A program made the translations under genes and the position numbers. Shown in pieces: positions 118 through 20,766 of a DNA stretch of 47,287 bases; within the stretch, counting starts at the first letter, position 1, and each line of letters opens with the position of its first letter. The stretch spans positions 1 through 47,287 of the forward strand of contig CAIUGE010000025.1 of the NCBI GenBank assembly GCA_903898645.1, in the 5' to 3' direction. The DNA comes from Oligoflexia bacterium (GTDB taxonomy: Bacteria > Bdellovibrionota > UBA1018). The notes under the pieces are model-generated. The model ran no database searches and was not told where the DNA came from. It worked only from the letters and a program-made list of their open reading frames with translations.

Positions 118-1626
118 ATGCACAGAAAAGCCCGAAGAGCCCACATTTTTGTGATTACATTACTTACAGTCATATCTGTGCATCATGCTTCAGCGACACT
201 GACGCTCAACCAGATCAACGACAAGAATCTAAATAAGCTATGGATAAACACCTTTGTAGCAAACGCTACAAACAACGCTGTCAAGCAGACCTTTTCCTCT
301 TTTCTAGAAAATTCTGAAAACACTATTAATATTCTCGTCCGTGAGGCTACGGACGCTGATTCGAATGCTGCCGGAAAAGCTCATGCTCTTTGTCGTACAA
401 GTCAGAATGCCTGTCAGTATGCTACGCTCACCGCTAAGACTGCTGCCGACACCCCTCAGGGCGACAGCAAGTACGCTCTTAATCACGCCATTGCTGACGC
501 CGCCACCCTTACTGCTGCTGCTGCTCTTGAAAGTGCAGCTACTGATGCTGCCATTAACCTTCCTATGTACACTGCCGACCTGCCTCATGACCAATATGCC
601 CCTATCCAGGCTAGAGCGAACCAGGAAGCTATTATTGCCACCTCCCGCGCTCTGCTTGCTGCTCGCGCTGTTGCCACACGCAATATTGATGCTATTGATT
701 CGACGACTACTGCTGCTATGACTGCCTCTGCCACTTTTCATATCACTCTTGAAAAAAGTATAAAAGCTCGCATGAGCGCCGATGACGCCGAACAGAGACG
801 CAAAGCTGTGAATGATGCCATGTCTTCTCTGGCATTTAATTTTCATGAAATGAATCGCACTCAAAATATTGCCCGCACTGCTCTCGCTCTCGCCAACCGT
901 ACTGGCACTACTGATGACAAGCTGCTAGCAGCTCTCGCCAACCTCGAAAGTGTCTGCACTCGCAGAAAGGCTACTCTTGATCGATCTCGAGATCTTTGTC
1001 TATTTTCCCATCTTAAGGATGCCGATAGCATTCGCGCTGCTGTTACCGAATCTCGTACCGATATTTCGGCCATTGACACGCTAGCTACAAACACTCTGGC
1101 TGATTTCCGGCAACTTGCGCCTGATTACCAAATTTCTGAAACTACCCATCCAGCGAGTGCCGCTTACGAACGCTTCACAAAGCTTGCTGCTCCTGACATG
1201 GCCACACACAATCTTGATGCCAAGGAGGCAGACGCTCGGGCAGCGACCACCAGTGCCGCTGCAAGCGCCTACCGTAACACTCTCCATGCTGCCAGCATTG
1301 CTCGTGCTGCTCGTGCTCAAGCCAATCAAACTGGCACCCTAGCCGATAATTTATCAGCTGCTCTTGCCGAGCTTGAACTTGCCTGCATCCAAAAAAAATA
1401 TACCCACGCTCAATCTCTAGCTCTTCTCCGGATGGCCAACTCTCCGAGTCATGACCATATTCGCTGTGCTATTAGCGCCATGGCCAAGGATTCTTTTACC
1501 GATATTCGCATTGCCGATGATCAAGCCGTAAAGGCACTGGCTTATTTTCGTAGAATTGCTCCTAACACCAAGATTTCTGAAGCTACGTATCCAGAGAGTG
1601 CTGCTTATGAACGTACCAGAAAATAA
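118..1626 (+). CDS. Exported alanine-rich helical protein with an internal duplication
   Basis: I do not recognise this protein (502 residues). The N-terminus is a Sec-type signal: basic residues (HRKARR), a hydrophobic stretch (FVITLLTVISV) and an Ala-x-Ala end near residue 25. I chose ATG 118, just after AGAGG, over an in-frame TTG at 85 that has no ribosome site. The mature chain is very rich in Ala, Thr, Asp and Leu, with no membrane segment, so it is probably helical and periplasmic or secreted. Residues about 246-355 and 389-502 are two copies of one unit: both run from a LANxTGT-like stretch through LA.LE..C..K to a shared ISE.T.P.SAAYER end. The gene converges on nadE, 13 bases away. 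It resembles the Ala-rich exported proteins at 11134-12213 and 37202-38209 in composition, not in clear sequence. Function is unknown; the coding call is fairly sure. Confidence 0.75.
   Translation: MHRKARRAHIFVITLLTVISVHHASATLTLNQINDKNLNKLWINTFVANATNNAVKQTFSSFLENSENTINILVREATDADSNAAGKAHALCRTSQNACQYATLTAKTAADTPQGDSKYALNHAIADAATLTAAAALESAATDAAINLPMYTADLPHDQYAPIQARANQEAIIATSRALLAARAVATRNIDAIDSTTTAAMTASATFHITLEKSIKARMSADDAEQRRKAVNDAMSSLAFNFHEMNRTQNIARTALALANRTGTTDDKLLAALANLESVCTRRKATLDRSRDLCLFSHLKDADSIRAAVTESRTDISAIDTLATNTLADFRQLAPDYQISETTHPASAAYERFTKLAAPDMATHNLDAKEADARAATTSAAASAYRNTLHAASIARAARAQANQTGTLADNLSAALAELELACIQKKYTHAQSLALLRMANSPSHDHIRCAISAMAKDSFTDIRIADDQAVKALAYFRRIAPNTKISEATYPESAAYERTRK
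850..1623 (+). repeat. Two ~110-residue protein-level tandem repeats
   Basis: Unit 1 spans about 850-1185 and unit 2 about 1280-1623 inside the Ala-rich gene. Both contain A.A.AN.TGT, then a LAALA.LE/LSAALAELE block, a C..(R/K)KAT/YT segment, and end with ISE.T(H/Y)P.SAAYER. The two copies are clearly diverged at DNA level, so this is an old duplication rather than a recent slippage product. Confidence 0.7.
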
Positions 1627-1639
1627 CGCCTATTGCCCT

Positions 1640-3301
1640 TTATGACTGCCACCAGCATGCTTTTTTTACAATCGGCATCATTCTTCCTCTCCCGATCGCC
1701 GTCGACGATACACGCAAAACAGGCGCCGCTTGGTTCAGCTTAAACTCACAGGCGTCCATACGTCTCAAAACATCCATAGTCCATCCGGGCCTGGAAAGCA
1801 GCGGCTCATATCTTTCTGAGAGACTTTGAAAAGATTCTTTTCCAGCCAAAACATCAGCTAAAAAAGCATCCAAGAGCTCATAAGGCGGCAAAGAATCCTC
1901 ATCTTTTTGCCCATGAGCAAGCTCAGCCGTTGGAGCCTTTTTCATAATCGCCTCACCTATAGCAGGATAGCTAGCGGCAAGCGCATAGACCTCTGTCTTA
2001 TAAAGGTCCCCAATGGGAGCCAACGCGCCCGCCATATCTCCATAAAGTGTACAATACCCAAGTAAAAGTTCAGATTTATTCCCGGTTGTAAGTACCAAAG
2101 CCCGCTCACTGGCCGATACCGCCATCAGGTACAGCGCCCGTACGCGGGCCTGCATATTTTCTCTCGCAAGCTGTGAAAGCCGAGTAATCTCACTCAGCAA
2201 CGCACAGCTGTCTGTATAGATCCTATCAATCGGGATAGCATGCACCTTAATCCCTAGACGATCAGCTAAATCACGAGCATCCTGAAGACTTGCAGGTGAT
2301 GAAAACTGACTTGGCATCATAAGGGCCGATACATGCTCCTTGCCCAGAGCCTCGACAGCAAGTACTGCCACAAGCGCGGAATCAATACCCCCACTCAAGC
2401 CAAGAATAACATCTGAAAAACCAGATTGCTTCACATACGAGGCAATGCCAAGGACCAATGCATCAGCCAAACTTCCCTCAACGTGCATACTCTCATCCAG
2501 CAAGCGCCCATCACAAAAAACACCCACTGCCTCATGAAAAAAGGGCAAATGGCTTAAAACACCATCTTTCGAGATACCAAATGAACCACCATCAAAAATA
2601 AGTTCATCTGATGCCCCAACAGCATTACAATAGACGAGAGGCACACCCAGGCGCTGCACCACACCCTGATGAACAGTTTTGCGTATCTCCATTTTCCCCT
2701 GCTCGTAAGGGCTGGCAGAGAGAGACACAACAATGTCAGGTGCAAGTACACGAAGCGATGACTCGAGCTTCAGATCACCTGAATTATGATACCCCCAAAG
2801 GTCTTCACAAATAGTAAAAACTACCCGCACCCCATCACAAAGCCAGACATCCGTTTTTTCAGCTGCTTGGAAAAATTTTTGTTCAAAAAAAATACCCCTG
2901 TTGGGTAAAATCGTCTTCGCCTGCCTAAGCACAAGCTTACCATTCTCAAAAACACTGATGCAGTTTTGGGCATGACTCACGTGCCCAACAGCAAGAGCTG
3001 CAGGCTTCCCAACGGTCACTGCACAACAGGCCTGGAGCACACGCTCCGTACACAGAGCCCAATCAGCCGACTGCATGAGCTCATAGGGGAAGTAGCCACC
3101 AATGGCCAATTCAGGCGTCACAATAAGACGCGCACCAAGCTCAACACCAAGCCGGTACGCATCAGTTATCTTCAGGTGATCAAATGCACCGACGGCAGTT
3201 CCAAACTGCGCCACTGCTATTTTAAAATCGGGAGTGTATCTCTGATTTTTCAAAGAAATAGGCCAGTTCACGCTCTGCTGATTGACTACTGTCTGAACCA
3301 T
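1640..3301 (-). CDS. nadE: Glutamine-dependent NAD+ synthetase
   Basis: Makes NAD+ from deamido-NAD+, ATP and glutamine-derived ammonia in the cytosol. The N-terminal half is a nitrilase-type amidohydrolase with its Glu-Lys-Cys triad visible at about E64 ([11 protein letters not shown]), K129 (AKTILPN) and C165 (FTICEDLW). The C-terminal half is the PP-loop synthetase with SGGIDS at about 303-308 and the [17 protein letters not shown] segment. About 553 residues, normal for the fused form. The start is uncertain: the conserved IAVAQF begins near base 3232, inside the end of ndk, and ATG 3310 or 3301, GTG 3271 and TTG 3253 are all in frame with weak ribosome sites. Every likely start overlaps ndk, which suggests translational coupling. 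It is the last gene of the icd operon. Confidence 0.93.
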
Positions 3302-3644
3302 GAACTGCATTTGCTTCAATGCCTTCGCCAAAAAGCTTTCTCACTGTCCCCGCATCAGCCTTTGCAGGATCAGTAGCACCCATGATTTCACGGTTACGTG
3401 CAACTGCACCTTCGCCTTCTAAGCACATCAAAAAAACAGGACCACTTGTCATAAATTGCACAAGGCTAGCAAAAAAAGGTCTATCCTTATGTTCAATATA
3501 AAATCCTTCAGTTTTTTCACGCGACAAATGCACCATTTTTATGGCAGCAACACGTAAGCCTTTTTCTTCAAAACAGCTTATCACCTTACCTACCACATTC
3601 TTGCTCACTGCATTGGGCTTAATAATCGAAAACGTCTTCTCCAT
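3222..3644 (-). CDS. ndk: Nucleoside diphosphate kinase
   Basis: Transfers the gamma phosphate from ATP to other nucleoside diphosphates through a phosphohistidine. At 140 residues it has normal bacterial length. The N-terminal ERTF-like strand is present ([12 protein letters not shown]), as are the nucleotide-contacting [10 protein letters not shown] segment and the active-site NAVHGSDS with catalytic His. The ATG lies one base after the sucD stop, and its ribosome site AAGAGG is inside the sucD tail. The 3' end overlaps the start of nadE. Its place after sucCD fits the GTP/ATP exchange linked to succinyl-CoA synthetase. Confidence 0.97.
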
Positions 3645-3645
3645 A

Positions 3646-4521
3646 TTACCTCTTTCCTAAGGCATCACGTAATGTGACACCAAGATCTGCAGGTGAACGC
3701 GCTATGCGAACACCAGCACTCATTAACGCCTGGAATTTTTCCTCGGCAGTTCCTTTGCCCCCTGAAATAATAGCACCTGCATGCCCCATCCGTTTACCAG
3801 CGGGTGCCGTTGCACCACCAATAAATCCAGCAATAGGCTTTTTAAATGCACGACGGATGTAATCAGCAGCCTCTTCTTCAGCAGTGCCCCCAATTTCGCC
3901 AATCATAATAACGCCGTCTGTATCTGGATCAGCCGCGAAGGCTTCAAGTACATCAATAAAATGCGTCCCATTCACAGGATCTCCACCAATACCAACACAG
4001 GTACTTTGCCCAAACCCTAATTGTGTCAGTTGATAGACTGCCTCATACGTCAACGTCCCGGATCTCGAAACTACACCCAAACGACCAGGGCGATGGATAC
4101 TGCCAGGCATAATGCCTATTTTACAAGCGCCAGGGGTAATAATTCCAGGACAGTTCGGCCCAATAAGCCGGCTTTTTGTAGATTGCAGCATTCTTTTAAC
4201 CTGCACCATATCACGAACCGGAATACCTTCTGTGATACAGACAATAAGCGGAATGCCCGCATCAGCTGCTTCACAAATAGCGTCAGCCGCACCCATGGGA
4301 GGAACAAAAATCATCGTGGCATTAGCATGCGTCTTTGCAACTGCCTCACCTACTGAGTTAAAAACAGGAAATCCATCTACATCCTGCCCACCTCGACCAG
4401 GAGTCACCCCACCTACAACTTCAGTCCCATACTCACGGCACCCCTTGGCATGAAATAAACCCTGAGACCCAGTAATACCCTGCACCAACAGCCGCGTCTG
4501 CTTATTAACCCAAATCGCCAT
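3646..4521 (-). CDS. sucD: Succinyl-CoA synthetase alpha subunit
   Basis: Alpha chain of the TCA enzyme that converts succinyl-CoA to succinate with nucleotide triphosphate formation. At 291 residues it is the usual length. The N-terminal CoA-binding Rossmann domain starts with [14 protein letters not shown]. The phosphorylated active-site His lies in [13 protein letters not shown] near residue 245. IGPNCPGII and [10 protein letters not shown] are family signatures. It follows sucC by 16 bases, with AGAGGA placed 8 bases before ATG, so it is co-transcribed and made in step with its partner. Confidence 0.97.
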
Positions 4522-4537
4522 ACTTTAAATCCTCTTA

Positions 4538-7954
<3,417 letters not shown>

Positions 7955-8140: not shown

Positions 8141-8256
8141 TCACCGTGGACGCGCGCACCGGAATCCGAGATTCGCACTCCAAAAGGACGGCCCAGCATT
8201 CAATGCCAGAGCAAACACACCAGCATATACGCCAGTACCATAGTCACCACCACGGA
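8141..8256 (-). other. Candidate DGR variable region (VR)
   Basis: This stretch encodes IRGGDYGTGVYAGVFALALN and then the AGPSFWSANLGFRCARPR end. Positions where known templates usually carry AAY codons here hold D, Y, T, V, Y, A, F, W and A, while the scaffold residues are intact. Seventeen bases after the stop, a short palindrome GACGTCAACGTC (8113-8124) sits where some retroelements have a hairpin needed for retrohoming. This is pattern matching only, without the template in hand. Confidence 0.45.
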
Positions 8257-9223
8257 TAGCAGCAGCAGGAGCTCCATTGACGACTGCGCTAGCTGCTCCA
8301 TTAAATTGCCCTATTGAGGAACCATTAAGGTTCCAAGTATTCCCAGTACCGCTACCTACTGTACCTGGATTCTGAGTAGCTCCTGCAACGAATGAAGTCT
8401 GAGTAGGTCCCGCTTGCATAAGCATATCAGTCCATTCCCACAAATTACCTATCATATCCTGCACACCAAACTGACTGATACAAGATACAGCCGAACCAGA
8501 AACCCATGTAGCCCCTGCCATAGCAGTACTACGTAGTGCACCACCATTAATATTACATGCAGCAGCAGCACCATTGGACGCCGAGCCAACGCTCGAGCCC
8601 GTTGATGCTGGCATCACAGTCCCCATTGCTGACATTTGCCAAACAGCATCTGGGATCAGCTGCTTACCAGAATTTGCACATGCTACAATCGCTTGAAACC
8701 AAGTGATAGTTGTAGCAGGCTGCACATTAGGCTTCGATACAGCATAGCCTGCGTAGCCAGCTCCACTCATGTCATACGATGATGAAACGTACACACTCCC
8801 CGTCCCGCCAGTCACTGACCAAACACTTGCCTGATATTTATCCACACACCAGGATCCTACAGGCACCATCACGTCATTGCTGTTGCCTGTAGCACATGAA
8901 CGCAAAGTTGTTGTTGCATTCCATGATTGACTCGACCACACCGCACCATTATCTACAAGGACGTTACCTGATGTGCCTGCAGCAACTGGACTTACGGCAC
9001 TAGTGCTATTACCTAATAGAACTGCACCTGCCGGAATAGTACTCAGACCTGTTCCCCCACCTGAGACAGTCAGCGTGCTGCTCAGAATGCCGTTAATGGC
9101 AGTTGAGATGCCGGCGAAATTTGCATTCATCTGGGACGCTGATATCGATGAACCAGCAGAAAAAGAATTTGATATAGAAAAAATCGCATGCGCTGCGGTA
9201 ACATAAGACAAGAAGAACAGCAT
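8141..9223 (-). CDS. Exported FGE/C-type-lectin-fold protein with retroelement-type variable C-terminus
   Basis: About 360 residues. A short signal peptide ends at TAAHA. Next comes a low-complexity, tail-fibre-like section (SGGGTGLSTIPAGAVLLGN and following) of the kind found in phage fibres and surface adhesins. From about residue 110 the chain matches the formylglycine-generating-enzyme/sulfatase-modifying-factor family (a C-type lectin fold): VGSWCVDKYQ, DMIGNLWEW, and the end RGGDYG...GFRCAR. The last ~38 residues follow the layout of variable regions in diversity-generating retroelement targets: fixed RGG, AGVFAL, PS and GFRC with scattered unusual residues between. No reverse transcriptase or template repeat was seen in the window. 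I chose ATG 9223; TTG 9229 is the alternative. A catalytic formylglycine role is unlikely; surface binding is the better guess. Confidence 0.78.
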   Translation of the reverse strand: MLFFLSYVTAAHAIFSISNSFSAGSSISASQMNANFAGISTAINGILSSTLTVSGGGTGLSTIPAGAVLLGNSTSAVSPVAAGTSGNVLVDNGAVWSSQSWNATTTLRSCATGNSNDVMVPVGSWCVDKYQASVWSVTGGTGSVYVSSSYDMSGAGYAGYAVSKPNVQPATTITWFQAIVACANSGKQLIPDAVWQMSAMGTVMPASTGSSVGSASNGAAAACNINGGALRSTAMAGATWVSGSAVSCISQFGVQDMIGNLWEWTDMLMQAGPTQTSFVAGATQNPGTVGSGTGNTWNLNGSSIGQFNGAASAVVNGAPAAAIRGGDYGTGVYAGVFALALNAGPSFWSANLGFRCARPR

Positions 9224-9355
9224 ACCCAATCACCCCCACGCACTCCTTTCGGTACCTCCATTTCTTTGCTAGAGCGCCTGTTTCGCCAGGATTTAAGAGC
9301 GTGATTAAAAAAAGATAGCGATATGCGTTATTGAAGCATATACCAAGATGACATT

Positions 9356-16371: not shown

Positions 16372-19300
16372 ATGTCCGAGAAGACATCAATGTCTTTGAA
16401 AATGCTTTTCATCATTTTTCAACTCTCTTGCCTCAGCCTTCCAGCTTATGCGGCTCCAGAATGTCAGAAGCATACATTCAAACTGTCTGCTATCATCGCA
16501 ACTTTTAAGGACACCCCGCCACAACTCAAAGATCTATCTAGTTACATGAAACATATAACAGAAAAAGAACATCACCCTGAGCGCATCGTTCACACACAAC
16601 AACAGATCCTGCGATTAAGTAGTTACCAATTCGATAAACAACACCGACCGCGAGAACTCATTGTGAACGCCATCGACGCCTACGCTCGAGCAAATGATCC
16701 GAAAAAGGACAACATAGTTTCCATTACATCAGCAAAAGAAACACTCACCATCAAAGATACCGGACCAGGCATGACATTAGCAAATATCTTTAATGATCTC
16801 TTGGTACCCAATCGCTCTCAAAATATCGGACTACTTGATCCAGAAAACGCCACAAAGGGCGTGACAGGAAAATTTGGTCAAGGATTTTTCTCCATCTTGT
16901 CCTATCTTCAAGAACAAGACGACTCCATAACTCTTGAGACACAAAATAAGGAATCGAAAATAAAGCTCCATTTTTACAAAAAAGACAATGAGATCCACAT
17001 AGGCATAGAAGAAATAGAGAATCGTGATTCAACAGGAACAACAATAACTATACACTCCTCAGATCTCGAAGAATCCGAAGTTCAAGAAACCATCCGGGAT
17101 ACATTCAAATTTAACAATAACGCAAAAATACTACTCAATGACAAAAACATTCACGCAAAAGACGACATAACGACACTGACGATCGGAGAACATAACCATA
17201 CTGGCTTCATTCGGATCATCGACAAAGACAAGCCTTCACAAGGGTCTGGCACACTCTACCTCCTTGTCAATGGAGTGCAAATCCAAAAAATGCATCATCA
17301 AGGCATCAATATATACAAAAATATGGTCATTGACCTCCCTGCCACAGTAGCGCTTACCCCAGACCGCGGCACATTCAACTCAAAAGATCCAGAAATTAAT
17401 GCATTCCTAGAAAATGCCCTTCATTCCATCGCAAACAGAAAAGACGGCACAACAATCATGAACACTCTTTATCCTTTTATTAAAAATACCAAGATACAAA
17501 TAGCACCCGACAAGTATCAATTGTCACAAAAAGTCGCGCCAGCAATACCCTTATTCAAAGACAGTGAGTACATCAATGGAGAAAAGATTCAATTACTACA
17601 CCCTGAATTATTTTACTCCAGCTCACGACTGTCAACAGTTCGTAGCCTCACGGACGATTATATCGAAATCTTCAAAGCTCCACTGATAACTACGATAAAA
17701 ATATTTGAAGAAAAAGAACGCAGACCTATCCTTCTTGTACCAGACTCAACAGATGTAAATTCTGCATTATTTCGAAGAATACTAAACAACATTCAAACAG
17801 AAAGGGCTCTACTTGACCCAAAGGATCGGGAGCCATGGGTAACGCCACACTTACATAGTTATTCCAAAAAAACAGCAGCAACAGTGGCGACAGCAGTGCC
17901 AAAAAAAGATACATTTTTTACACCTTTGAACAAAATTTCTTTTTATCTCGAATGGGCCAAATGTGGTTCAATTATTTTTAACGACCAATTCCCTATGGCT
18001 CAAAAAATATACAAAAAAGCCAAGGAAATAGCTCCAGAATCTCAAGATCTAGAAGCATCCATTGAATACATAATACTTAGAATAAGAAAAAAAGAAAAAT
18101 CATTCTCATGTGTACCATTACCTCACCTAAGTGTAACTAAGACCATCACAGGCACCCCTCACCACACCTCACCAACCATCGGCAATCCAATAGTGCTAGC
18201 ACAGGATGTCGCTTCAGCATCTTTAAACGCACTTCATACTCTCGAATACCCAGAAGAAGAATTGCAATTGCTGCACTTTATGTGCAATATGAAAAAATTC
18301 TTTTCCGTCAATACGCGTATCTACGACTCGATGTTAGAAGAGTTTATAGATATAGAAGAAAAATCACTTTTAAATAAAAGAATGCATCAGTTGCAAGAAC
18401 TCATTAGCTTCATAGGCACACCTAGTGCAATTACTTCTCGATCACACCTCCAGCAACATTATTATTCGTCACTCATCAACATACAGCGCAACAAATTGTC
18501 GTTAGACTATAGCCCTGACTCTATAAAGAATTTCTTTGATTGTATAGACTCATCGACATCTCCTATTACCCATCAAGCATGGAAGAACATTAAGATGTTG
18601 GAACTTGATTGCAGCATCACAAAAACGCCTCCATTTATAAAAGCAGAAATTATTTCAACAAAAAAAGAATTTGATGCTGAATCTGCAGAAAAATTAAAAA
18701 AAATAATTAAATTTTTTGTTAATTCAAGATTTCGCGGTATAGATACCTATGCTCAAAAATACTTCTATTTTATTTTTGAAAAAATAATAAAAAAAACCCT
18801 ATCAGATACAGATGTCGCACTGATAGAGAAACTAGGATCTGAGTTTTATAAAACTATCAGAATAGAATGCCATTCTGCACCAGAGTGCTACAATAAGTAC
18901 ATTTCTCAAAACGTCTTTTCACCAGAAACGATACCCTACGTAGCACAACTATTCTTTGGAAAAATAAAACCTCTTCCTGGTAACGAATTCATCAAACAAG
19001 ACGGTACGTTTACACGCATAGTAGACAACCCACGTGTACAAGAAATATTAGGCAATGACAAAAAATTAATAGCAAGTCAATTTGTTATTTCAATAAATCA
19101 AAATAACGATCAAAAATGGTTAGAAGAATGCATTAAAAATGCACTCGAGGCAAATGCATCAAAAATCGACTTCCGCGTTTTTCTCAGAGAAAGAAAAATG
19201 TCTGTAGAAATAGAAGACAATGGCGACGGTCTGCCTGCATCAGAAATGCACACATTTTACATACCAACCCTCAGTACGAAAGAAAAAAAAGAAGGAAACA

Positions 19301-20766
19301 TTAATTTCGGACATGGATTTTTTCAACTTTTTCAATATTTTGACAACGTTGTAGTCGACAGTACACACAACAATAAGACACACCGCATCCATCTTCGATT
19401 AACGAACAATCCATCAAATCCTATAGATTTTTACGAAGAAGAAATTGTGCCGGCATTTCCTCATAGTGGAATTAAAATATCAGCGCAACGATCACAAGAC
19501 TTCGACCCCTACGATGTGGCATTTATGTATGGAAAATTTTTCGCATCCACAGGAGGCCTCTCATCCATAGAGGCAAATTTTAATAATGAAAAAATAGACA
19601 CGAACCTACTGAGCCCTTTCAAAGAAGAGCTTTTAATTCATAAAGACAAAGATTGCAGCACCTACCTCAGTACCTCTCCTGGCGTGTATTTTCACTCTAT
19701 AAAACATAGCGATCAGCTGCCAACAGAGCTCTTCTCAGCTGCGGTCAAAAAGACTTTAACTGACTGTAATCAAACATTGGCCATTAACATTACAGATCCA
19801 AGCATCACGCAAAACGCAGGTCGCACCAACCTGCCAATCACGAAGTACTATGGAAAAATCCAAGAAGGAGCCATAGCTGCTATTATGAGAGATTTCATAA
19901 TAAAAATAAAAGATAATACTTTAGGTAAGTATGACTTTTTTTATGAAATGAAAAGTTTACAAACCGAAAAAAAAGAACCCCTAAATATAAGAAACATAAA
20001 AACAATAGAAGAGAAAGACTTTACATATGCCCTCATTAATACACCTCTATACAAGTCGACCCACTCTTTAATTGACATTAAAGAGCTTATTAAAAATATC
20101 CTTACAGAAAAAGGAATGATCGATACATATGGAAGATACACCCTCAAAAAAGTCGATGAAGACACGTGGAAGACCATAAAGCACACTTTACAATCAAAAA
20201 CCAACTTAAAAGAAGAAATTCTGCAGATTGTGCAGAGATTCGAGAGTGAAATAAATAGACATATTGAATCAATGCTGCAACAAAAAAATACTGACATTGC
20301 CCCGTTGACTGGTAGCAAGCACTATTTGTCTGATATCGAAATAGATAACGAGCAAAAAGCAACTCATTTGCACAAGCTGAGAAACTGGATGACATCAGCA
20401 GCTGTACATTTTTACAACAAAACAATTAACATGAATTTCTATAAAGCAGCCGACAGCTCGCAGGCACATGCTTATAAGGGGGGCAACATTATTGGCATCA
20501 ATTTACTCAATGGCCCTCTCGAAATATTTGAAACACTCGAAAAAGCCTGCCACAGTAAAGACCTTCAGGCACAAGAAAAAATAAACATCGCTCTCCACGT
20601 CCTCCTGACGCATGAGCTCGTCCATCTTGATGAACATCCCGATCAAGCAACTCATGATAAAGAATTTTTCGATAAGCAAGCAGATAAACTCATGCATATT
20701 GTATACAATGCCAAACTTTTTCAGAGCACACTGTGCACACAGTTCCTGCCATCTCCGCAGCCATAA
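16372..20766 (+). CDS. Exported tandem GHKL-ATPase protein with C-terminal HExxH metallopeptidase-like domain
   Basis: 1464 residues; I know no named family with this layout. A signal peptide (KMLFIIFQLSCLSLPAYA) ends near residue 27; ATG 16390 is an alternative start. GHKL module 1, about 75-390: N-box E95-x3-N99-x2-D102, DTGPG at 129-133, GKFGQGF at 166-172, a TGTTITI strand, then a transducer-like part ending LTPDRGT. A helical linker follows, about 400-890. GHKL module 2, about 900-1200: E919-x3-N923 with Glu at 926, DNGDG at 949-953, NFGHGF at 978-983, and an equivalent QNAGRTN element. Near the C-terminus is HELVHLDEH (1414-1422), a zincin signature with a possible third His ligand. Both ATP sites look intact, odd for a protein leaving the cytosol, where ATP is absent. 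The 18.6-20.3 kb part is clearly A+T-rich. It is a lone gene, divergent from maeB. A secreted effector or a chaperone-protease are possibilities, both unproven. Confidence 0.85.
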   Translation: MSEKTSMSLKMLFIIFQLSCLSLPAYAAPECQKHTFKLSAIIATFKDTPPQLKDLSSYMKHITEKEHHPERIVHTQQQILRLSSYQFDKQHRPRELIVNAIDAYARANDPKKDNIVSITSAKETLTIKDTGPGMTLANIFNDLLVPNRSQNIGLLDPENATKGVTGKFGQGFFSILSYLQEQDDSITLETQNKESKIKLHFYKKDNEIHIGIEEIENRDSTGTTITIHSSDLEESEVQETIRDTFKFNNNAKILLNDKNIHAKDDITTLTIGEHNHTGFIRIIDKDKPSQGSGTLYLLVNGVQIQKMHHQGINIYKNMVIDLPATVALTPDRGTFNSKDPEINAFLENALHSIANRKDGTTIMNTLYPFIKNTKIQIAPDKYQLSQKVAPAIPLFKDSEYINGEKIQLLHPELFYSSSRLSTVRSLTDDYIEIFKAPLITTIKIFEEKERRPILLVPDSTDVNSALFRRILNNIQTERALLDPKDREPWVTPHLHSYSKKTAATVATAVPKKDTFFTPLNKISFYLEWAKCGSIIFNDQFPMAQKIYKKAKEIAPESQDLEASIEYIILRIRKKEKSFSCVPLPHLSVTKTITGTPHHTSPTIGNPIVLAQDVASASLNALHTLEYPEEELQLLHFMCNMKKFFSVNTRIYDSMLEEFIDIEEKSLLNKRMHQLQELISFIGTPSAITSRSHLQQHYYSSLINIQRNKLSLDYSPDSIKNFFDCIDSSTSPITHQAWKNIKMLELDCSITKTPPFIKAEIISTKKEFDAESAEKLKKIIKFFVNSRFRGIDTYAQKYFYFIFEKIIKKTLSDTDVALIEKLGSEFYKTIRIECHSAPECYNKYISQNVFSPETIPYVAQLFFGKIKPLPGNEFIKQDGTFTRIVDNPRVQEILGNDKKLIASQFVISINQNNDQKWLEECIKNALEANASKIDFRVFLRERKMSVEIEDNGDGLPASEMHTFYIPTLSTKEKKEGNINFGHGFFQLFQYFDNVVVDSTHNNKTHRIHLRLTNNPSNPIDFYEEEIVPAFPHSGIKISAQRSQDFDPYDVAFMYGKFFASTGGLSSIEANFNNEKIDTNLLSPFKEELLIHKDKDCSTYLSTSPGVYFHSIKHSDQLPTELFSAAVKKTLTDCNQTLAINITDPSITQNAGRTNLPITKYYGKIQEGAIAAIMRDFIIKIKDNTLGKYDFFYEMKSLQTEKKEPLNIRNIKTIEEKDFTYALINTPLYKSTHSLIDIKELIKNILTEKGMIDTYGRYTLKKVDEDTWKTIKHTLQSKTNLKEEILQIVQRFESEINRHIESMLQQKNTDIAPLTGSKHYLSDIEIDNEQKATHLHKLRNWMTSAAVHFYNKTINMNFYKAADSSQAHAYKGGNIIGINLLNGPLEIFETLEKACHSKDLQAQEKINIALHVLLTHELVHLDEHPDQATHDKEFFDKQADKLMHIVYNAKLFQSTLCTQFLPSPQP

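Follow-up and report, generated by a model that had tools for sequence, protein, structure and literature searches.

The window analysed here is a stretch of 47,287 nucleotides from an Oligoflexia bacterium (GenBank assembly GCA_903898645.1, contig CAIUGE010000025.1, forward strand), and the gene under study lies on its minus strand. Its features are listed below, where DGR stands for diversity-generating retroelement, VR for variable region, and TR1 and TR2 for two template repeats found on another contig of the same genome.

8141..9223, minus strand: paralog of a DGR target protein, 360 aa from the ATG at 9223 (the program's ORF starts at the TTG at 9229)
9185..9223, minus strand: probable signal peptide MLFFLSYVTAAHA, read from the sequence, with the same leader in paralogs
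9062..9184, minus strand: N-terminal fibre-like module (SFSAGSSISASQMNANF...), common to a large family in the same genome
8150..8737, minus strand: FGE-sulfatase / C-type-lectin-like domain, a profile match (Pfam E = 3e-9)
8141..8281, minus strand: VR-homologous stretch of 141 bases, colinear with TR1 and TR2
8141..8254, minus strand: variable-region core, 38 codons including the stop, with the template-A codons
8141..8167, minus strand: conserved 3' end and possible IMH, GGATTCCGGTGCGCGCGTCCACGGTGA, with three mismatches to the templates in 27 bases

The ORF ends at the stop at 8141 and encodes 360 or 362 aa; the ATG at 9223 is the likelier start and lines up with the start of the DGR target gene on contig C50, described below. 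The leader that follows is hydrophobic and terminates in AHA. Just 5' of this ATG, at 9225-9240 on the minus strand, CGTGGGGGTGATTGGG matches TR1 at 14 of 16 positions, and may be a remnant of an older VR or a coincidence.

Directly downstream of the gene, and on the same strand, is an icd-mdh-sucC-sucD run (assigned from ORF translations). Further neighbours include genes for Ham1, malic enzyme, and PNPase, which places the gene in ordinary chromosome with no recognisable phage around it. Searches of the genome contigs set, viral contigs, and phages returned no relatives of the window protein, and plasmids yielded no relative of the C50 target; nothing therefore speaks for an origin from a phage or plasmid. 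Elsewhere in the window, positions 16372-20766 of the plus strand hold a 1464-aa ORF with two HATPase_c_3 stretches.

The protein ends in APAAAIRGGDYGTGVYAGVFALALNAGPSFWSANLGFRCARPR*, encoded by 8141-8256 on the minus strand (116 bases, translating to RGGDYGTGVYAGVFALALNAGPSFWSANLGFRCARPR). The translation confirms the RGG...GFRC terminus that the initial annotation had described for these positions, in full RGG...AGVFAL...PS...GFRCARPR, and places it at the C-terminus of the FGE-sulfatase domain. The Pfam match to that domain lies above the curated cut-off and covers the C-terminal half of the protein. Taken with weak EgtB/SenA matches, it could suggest a working enzyme of the formylglycine-generating or sulfoxide-synthase type, unrelated to any DGR. 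We regard this as very improbable: the protein is 67% identical to the target in a DGR cassette of the same genome, NCBIfam enzyme models fall far below cut-off, and there is no cysteine in the stretch preceding GFRC, which is where the catalytic cysteine pair of FGE enzymes sits. On these grounds a functional FGE enzyme was rejected. The AlphaFold models of the full protein and of the domain were too weak to use (pLDDT 29 and 45, pTM 0.27 and 0.50), and their best PDB matches, to Mtd, FGE, and TaqVP, all had E > 0.1. When a family profile was used instead, built to include other DGR targets, the best solved relative was 2y3c, Treponema denticola variable protein 1.

The same terminus had been taken as specific to DGR targets. 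However, RGG...GFRC is the usual ending of FGE-type domains, and by itself it is a weak sign of a DGR. A genome of the same family (G006) makes the point: it encodes an FGE protein 46-49% identical to the window protein (L023:1501-2604, contig C210), a long fibre-like ORF with an FGE domain that ends GFRCARPR, and a search of that genome for a close DGR reverse transcriptase (RT) returned nothing but a weak RT match that is interrupted by a stop codon. The motif alone therefore does not show a DGR. In a class-level sample of 58 genomes, G006 was the only one, besides the genome studied, with a close relative of the target.

Evidence for a DGR must thus come from elsewhere in the genome. The initial annotation had noted that the RT was outside the window, leaving "remote target or frozen relic" as the options, and this pairing proved correct. 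The only RVT_1 gene in the genome lies on contig C50 (locus L013), together with Avd and the templates, all on the minus strand and in the order target, HTH-like ORF, Avd, RT, TR1, TR2:

3831-5015, minus strand: DGR target, 394 aa, 67% identical to the window protein
2904-3788, minus strand: 294-aa ORF between target and Avd that matches HTH_17 weakly (E = 0.021, below cut-off)
2543-2911, minus strand: Avd (PHROG 3206 "Avd protein of DGR", 2e-14; Pfam bAvd, 3e-8, below the curated cut-off)
1596-2546, minus strand: DGR reverse transcriptase (PHROG 1423, 8e-62), with LGNLTSQ at 179 and YMDDF at 210
1424-1564, minus strand: TR1
970-1110, minus strand: TR2

The RT has both DGR-clade motifs sought, [ILV]GxxxSQ and YxDD. 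Between TR2 and the VR of the C50 target (the local VR), 7 of the 141 bases differ; five of these are at template adenines (Fisher p = 0.001 for adenine bias), and the other two form a TC-to-GG change in codon 9, which precedes the core. Over the last 114 bases there are five differences, all at template adenines, and none of the 29 fourfold silent sites has changed. Among the nine nearest RT relatives in public genomes, six adjoin TR/VR pairs in which 93-100% of mismatches are at template A. On sequence grounds the C50 locus is a genuine DGR, and its target is now rewritten with TR2 as the template. An automatic TR/VR scan raised no flag on C50, probably because the best 90-base window fell below the minimum of four mismatches; the TR2/local VR pair was shown by direct alignment. 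No homologue of the 294-aa HTH_17-like ORF was present in the other DGR loci compared.

The initial annotation had also suggested searching the genome for a template beside an RT and Avd, with differences at adenines only. Both templates, a YMDD RT, and Avd were indeed there, on C50; the differences from the window gene are not confined to adenines. The two repeats match the window stretch at 74% and 72% identity (E = 1e-18 and 9e-14), so that its resemblance to a DGR VR exceeds chance, and an ungapped alignment of the last 141 bases of the gene gives 74% to TR1 and 70-72% to TR2. Such template homology, together with the 67% identity over the protein to the cassette target, bears out the proposed membership of a DGR target family: the window gene has both the homologous C-terminal FGE/C-type-lectin domain and a VR at its 3' end.

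The pattern of differences is a separate matter. Against TR1, the window VR differs at 37 of 141 bases, 11 at A and 26 elsewhere (16 of the latter at third codon positions); against TR2 the corresponding figures are 14 and 28. At fourfold sites, 10/25 differ from TR1, 10/23 from TR2, and 10/23 from the local VR (40-43%). An active remote target is expected to differ almost only at template adenines, which the window VR does not, and its silent-site drift relative to the template is likewise unlike that of a live target. Because retrohoming swaps the VR for a template copy, erasing silent differences each time, the window VR must have gone a long time without rewriting from the present templates, perhaps ever since the genes duplicated. 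The suggestion that the protein is hypervariable now is not supported, on the same counts, namely 26-28 non-adenine differences and the 40-43% fourfold divergence from both templates. In general, a silent-site comparison with the template tells live from frozen targets.

These counts also weigh against the gene being a live but rarely used remote target, whether served by the C50 DGR or by a template that the assembly lacks; we consider this unlikely. In its favour, the ORF and scaffold are intact, the VR is recognisable, and the last 27 bases, which may function as an IMH, are conserved but for the three mismatches; moreover, remote targets far from their RT are known (PMC7517822, PMC3521204). 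A genome search with the template adenines masked recovered TR1, TR2, and the local VR only, with no further template or fresh VR, in an assembly of 118 contigs that is 97.6% complete and from which a further template could be missing. Hairpins following the VRs were sought at four sites, and none was better than shuffles.

If the gene is not rewritten now, was it ever? One answer is that it was never diversified. It would then be a stable paralog or ancestor of the recruited target family, an ordinary surface protein of the FGE fold, and normal evolution would account for the variation of its pocket residues. The protein in G006, with its 46-49% identity, same ending, and no close DGR RT, is what this would lead one to expect, and DGR targets usually have stable paralogs (PMC3521204). 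Outside the VR, 74 of 121 fourfold sites differ between the window gene and the C50 target; divergence in the VR is only slightly lower, and not significantly so (p = 0.17), so it is statistically equal to that of the rest of the gene, and rewriting of the window VR after gene duplication is not proved by the fourfold data. Two observations fit past template copying better, although neither is decisive. The first is that raised dN/dS between the window gene and the C50 target is restricted to the VR core (0.61, from few codons, against ~0.17 in the scaffold), where recent rewriting on the C50 side must account for part of the excess. The second is a block of codons (13, 15, and 16, reading GAC, GGT, and ACT) that the window VR has in common with TR1 and that TR2 lacks. 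On this evidence we consider a gene that was never diversified rather unlikely. Codon variation speaks to the family as a whole and not just to the window gene. In the homologous VRs of four proteins (C50, window, C95, and G006), variation is seen at every one of the 14 codons whose first or second position is a template A, compared with 12 of the 32 remaining codons (p = 4e-5).

The codon block belongs to a larger difference between the templates. TR1 and TR2 (L013:970-1564, minus strand of C50) lie within a tandem duplication that starts at the 3' end of the RT gene and is 92% identical over 445 alignment columns. Nine of the 141 template bases differ between them, and six of the nine form an unbroken run in codons 15-16, which looks like the replacement of a small patch. 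At these distinguishing sites, the local VR agrees with TR2 at all nine, while the window VR agrees with TR1 at seven, including a run of six adjacent ones. This is consistent with descent of the window VR from a TR1-like template, but the block is small and may reflect one event, which counts against reading the gene as a former target. It is conceivable, but doubtful, that the tandem templates serve separate targets, TR2 the C50 target, while TR1 either wrote the window target or took the block from it. In the latter case, selected targets would feed changes back into the templates. One template is found in 79.9% of multi-VR DGRs, and about a fifth have more (PMC6642488).

On balance, we think it reasonably probable that the window gene is a former DGR target, once diversified from a template, later no longer rewritten, and now frozen. 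The evidence for this past is suggestive, and its status as a once-live target is one that we infer from the sequence comparisons above. In the established DGR scheme, adenine-mutagenised cDNA replaces the VR (summarised in PMC12875486). This scheme applies to the C50 target, where the RT and Avd reverse-transcribe the TR RNA, making errors at its adenines, and the cDNA takes the place of the VR. The ancestor of the window gene would have been diversified in the same manner, by mutagenised template cDNA copied into its 3' end. The target gene would then have been duplicated and the window copy would have dropped out of the rewriting cycle, with the three mismatches in its 3' initiation stretch as either cause or consequence. 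Its VR would now be fixed and subject to ordinary substitution, with the scaffold under purifying selection, while the DGR today would rewrite the C50 cassette target from TR2.

On contig C95, a frameshift that may be an assembly artefact divides a third paralog in two (L014 1473-2147 and 1972-2577); ~1.7 kb downstream of this paralog there is a VR-like fragment (L014 ~4226-4348). An uncharacterised lineage would thus hold a DGR with duplicated templates and targets at three stages, namely rewritten (C50), intact but quiet (window), and frameshifted (C95). Such a family fits the idea that DGR variants can be retired and then kept as ordinary genes.

A retired target away from its DGR is already known from other bacteria, and the window gene, as a probable former target, would be another case. 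Among cyanobacteria, 76 remote targets have been described, and in Nostoc PCC 7120 the paralog all3226 has remnant TR-VR homology with no RT nearby (PMC7517822). It is a C-type-lectin-fold paralog distant from the RT, as the window gene, by its predicted fold, would also be, and paralogs of this type are proposed to have been freed from diversification once a good variant was fixed (PMC7517822). The N-terminal partners of the cyanobacterial proteins are mostly kinases, whereas the window protein has a probable signal peptide and a fibre-like module, and the host lineages differ.

Treponema denticola offers a second comparison, with TvpA (2y3c) and a remote SP32 target (PMC4891356). The fold there is FGE-like, as is predicted for the window protein, and the remote gene, like the window gene, matches another template type better than its core TR; however, it keeps 19/21 changes at template A, whereas the window VR has many non-A changes. 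The DiGReF survey (PMC3521204) reported stable paralogs beside multi-VR DGRs, as well as remote targets >370 kb away. In those families, as in this one, rewriting affects some of the paralogs and spares the rest; unlike them, the present family also has a frameshifted paralog and a tandemly duplicated template. Lastly, a DGR in MAG bacterium BP6.bin83 (locus L045, JAJXYJ010000022.1) resembles the C50 system in having an FGE-type target, ending LRGG...AGVETLGLNSAPGNSGSSIGFRCAR, and a nearby TR with 10/10 mismatches at A; its RT is 34% identical to that of C50. Unlike the window gene, its target has a prepilin-like N-terminus, a single template, and a place within the cassette, and it is freshly rewritten.

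As for function, the leader peptide and fold family would suit a surface ligand binder. The N-terminal module (leader plus SFTAGSPISASQM..NF) is also present in many other secreted, fibre-like proteins of the same genome, which make up a large family with members on contigs C72, C94, C79, C13, C53, C100, C86, C16, C4, C14, C61, and C104, and at L015:10452-11255 and L015:12479-13378. Many of these lie at contig ends, and several terminate in Peptidase_S74 chaperone domains.
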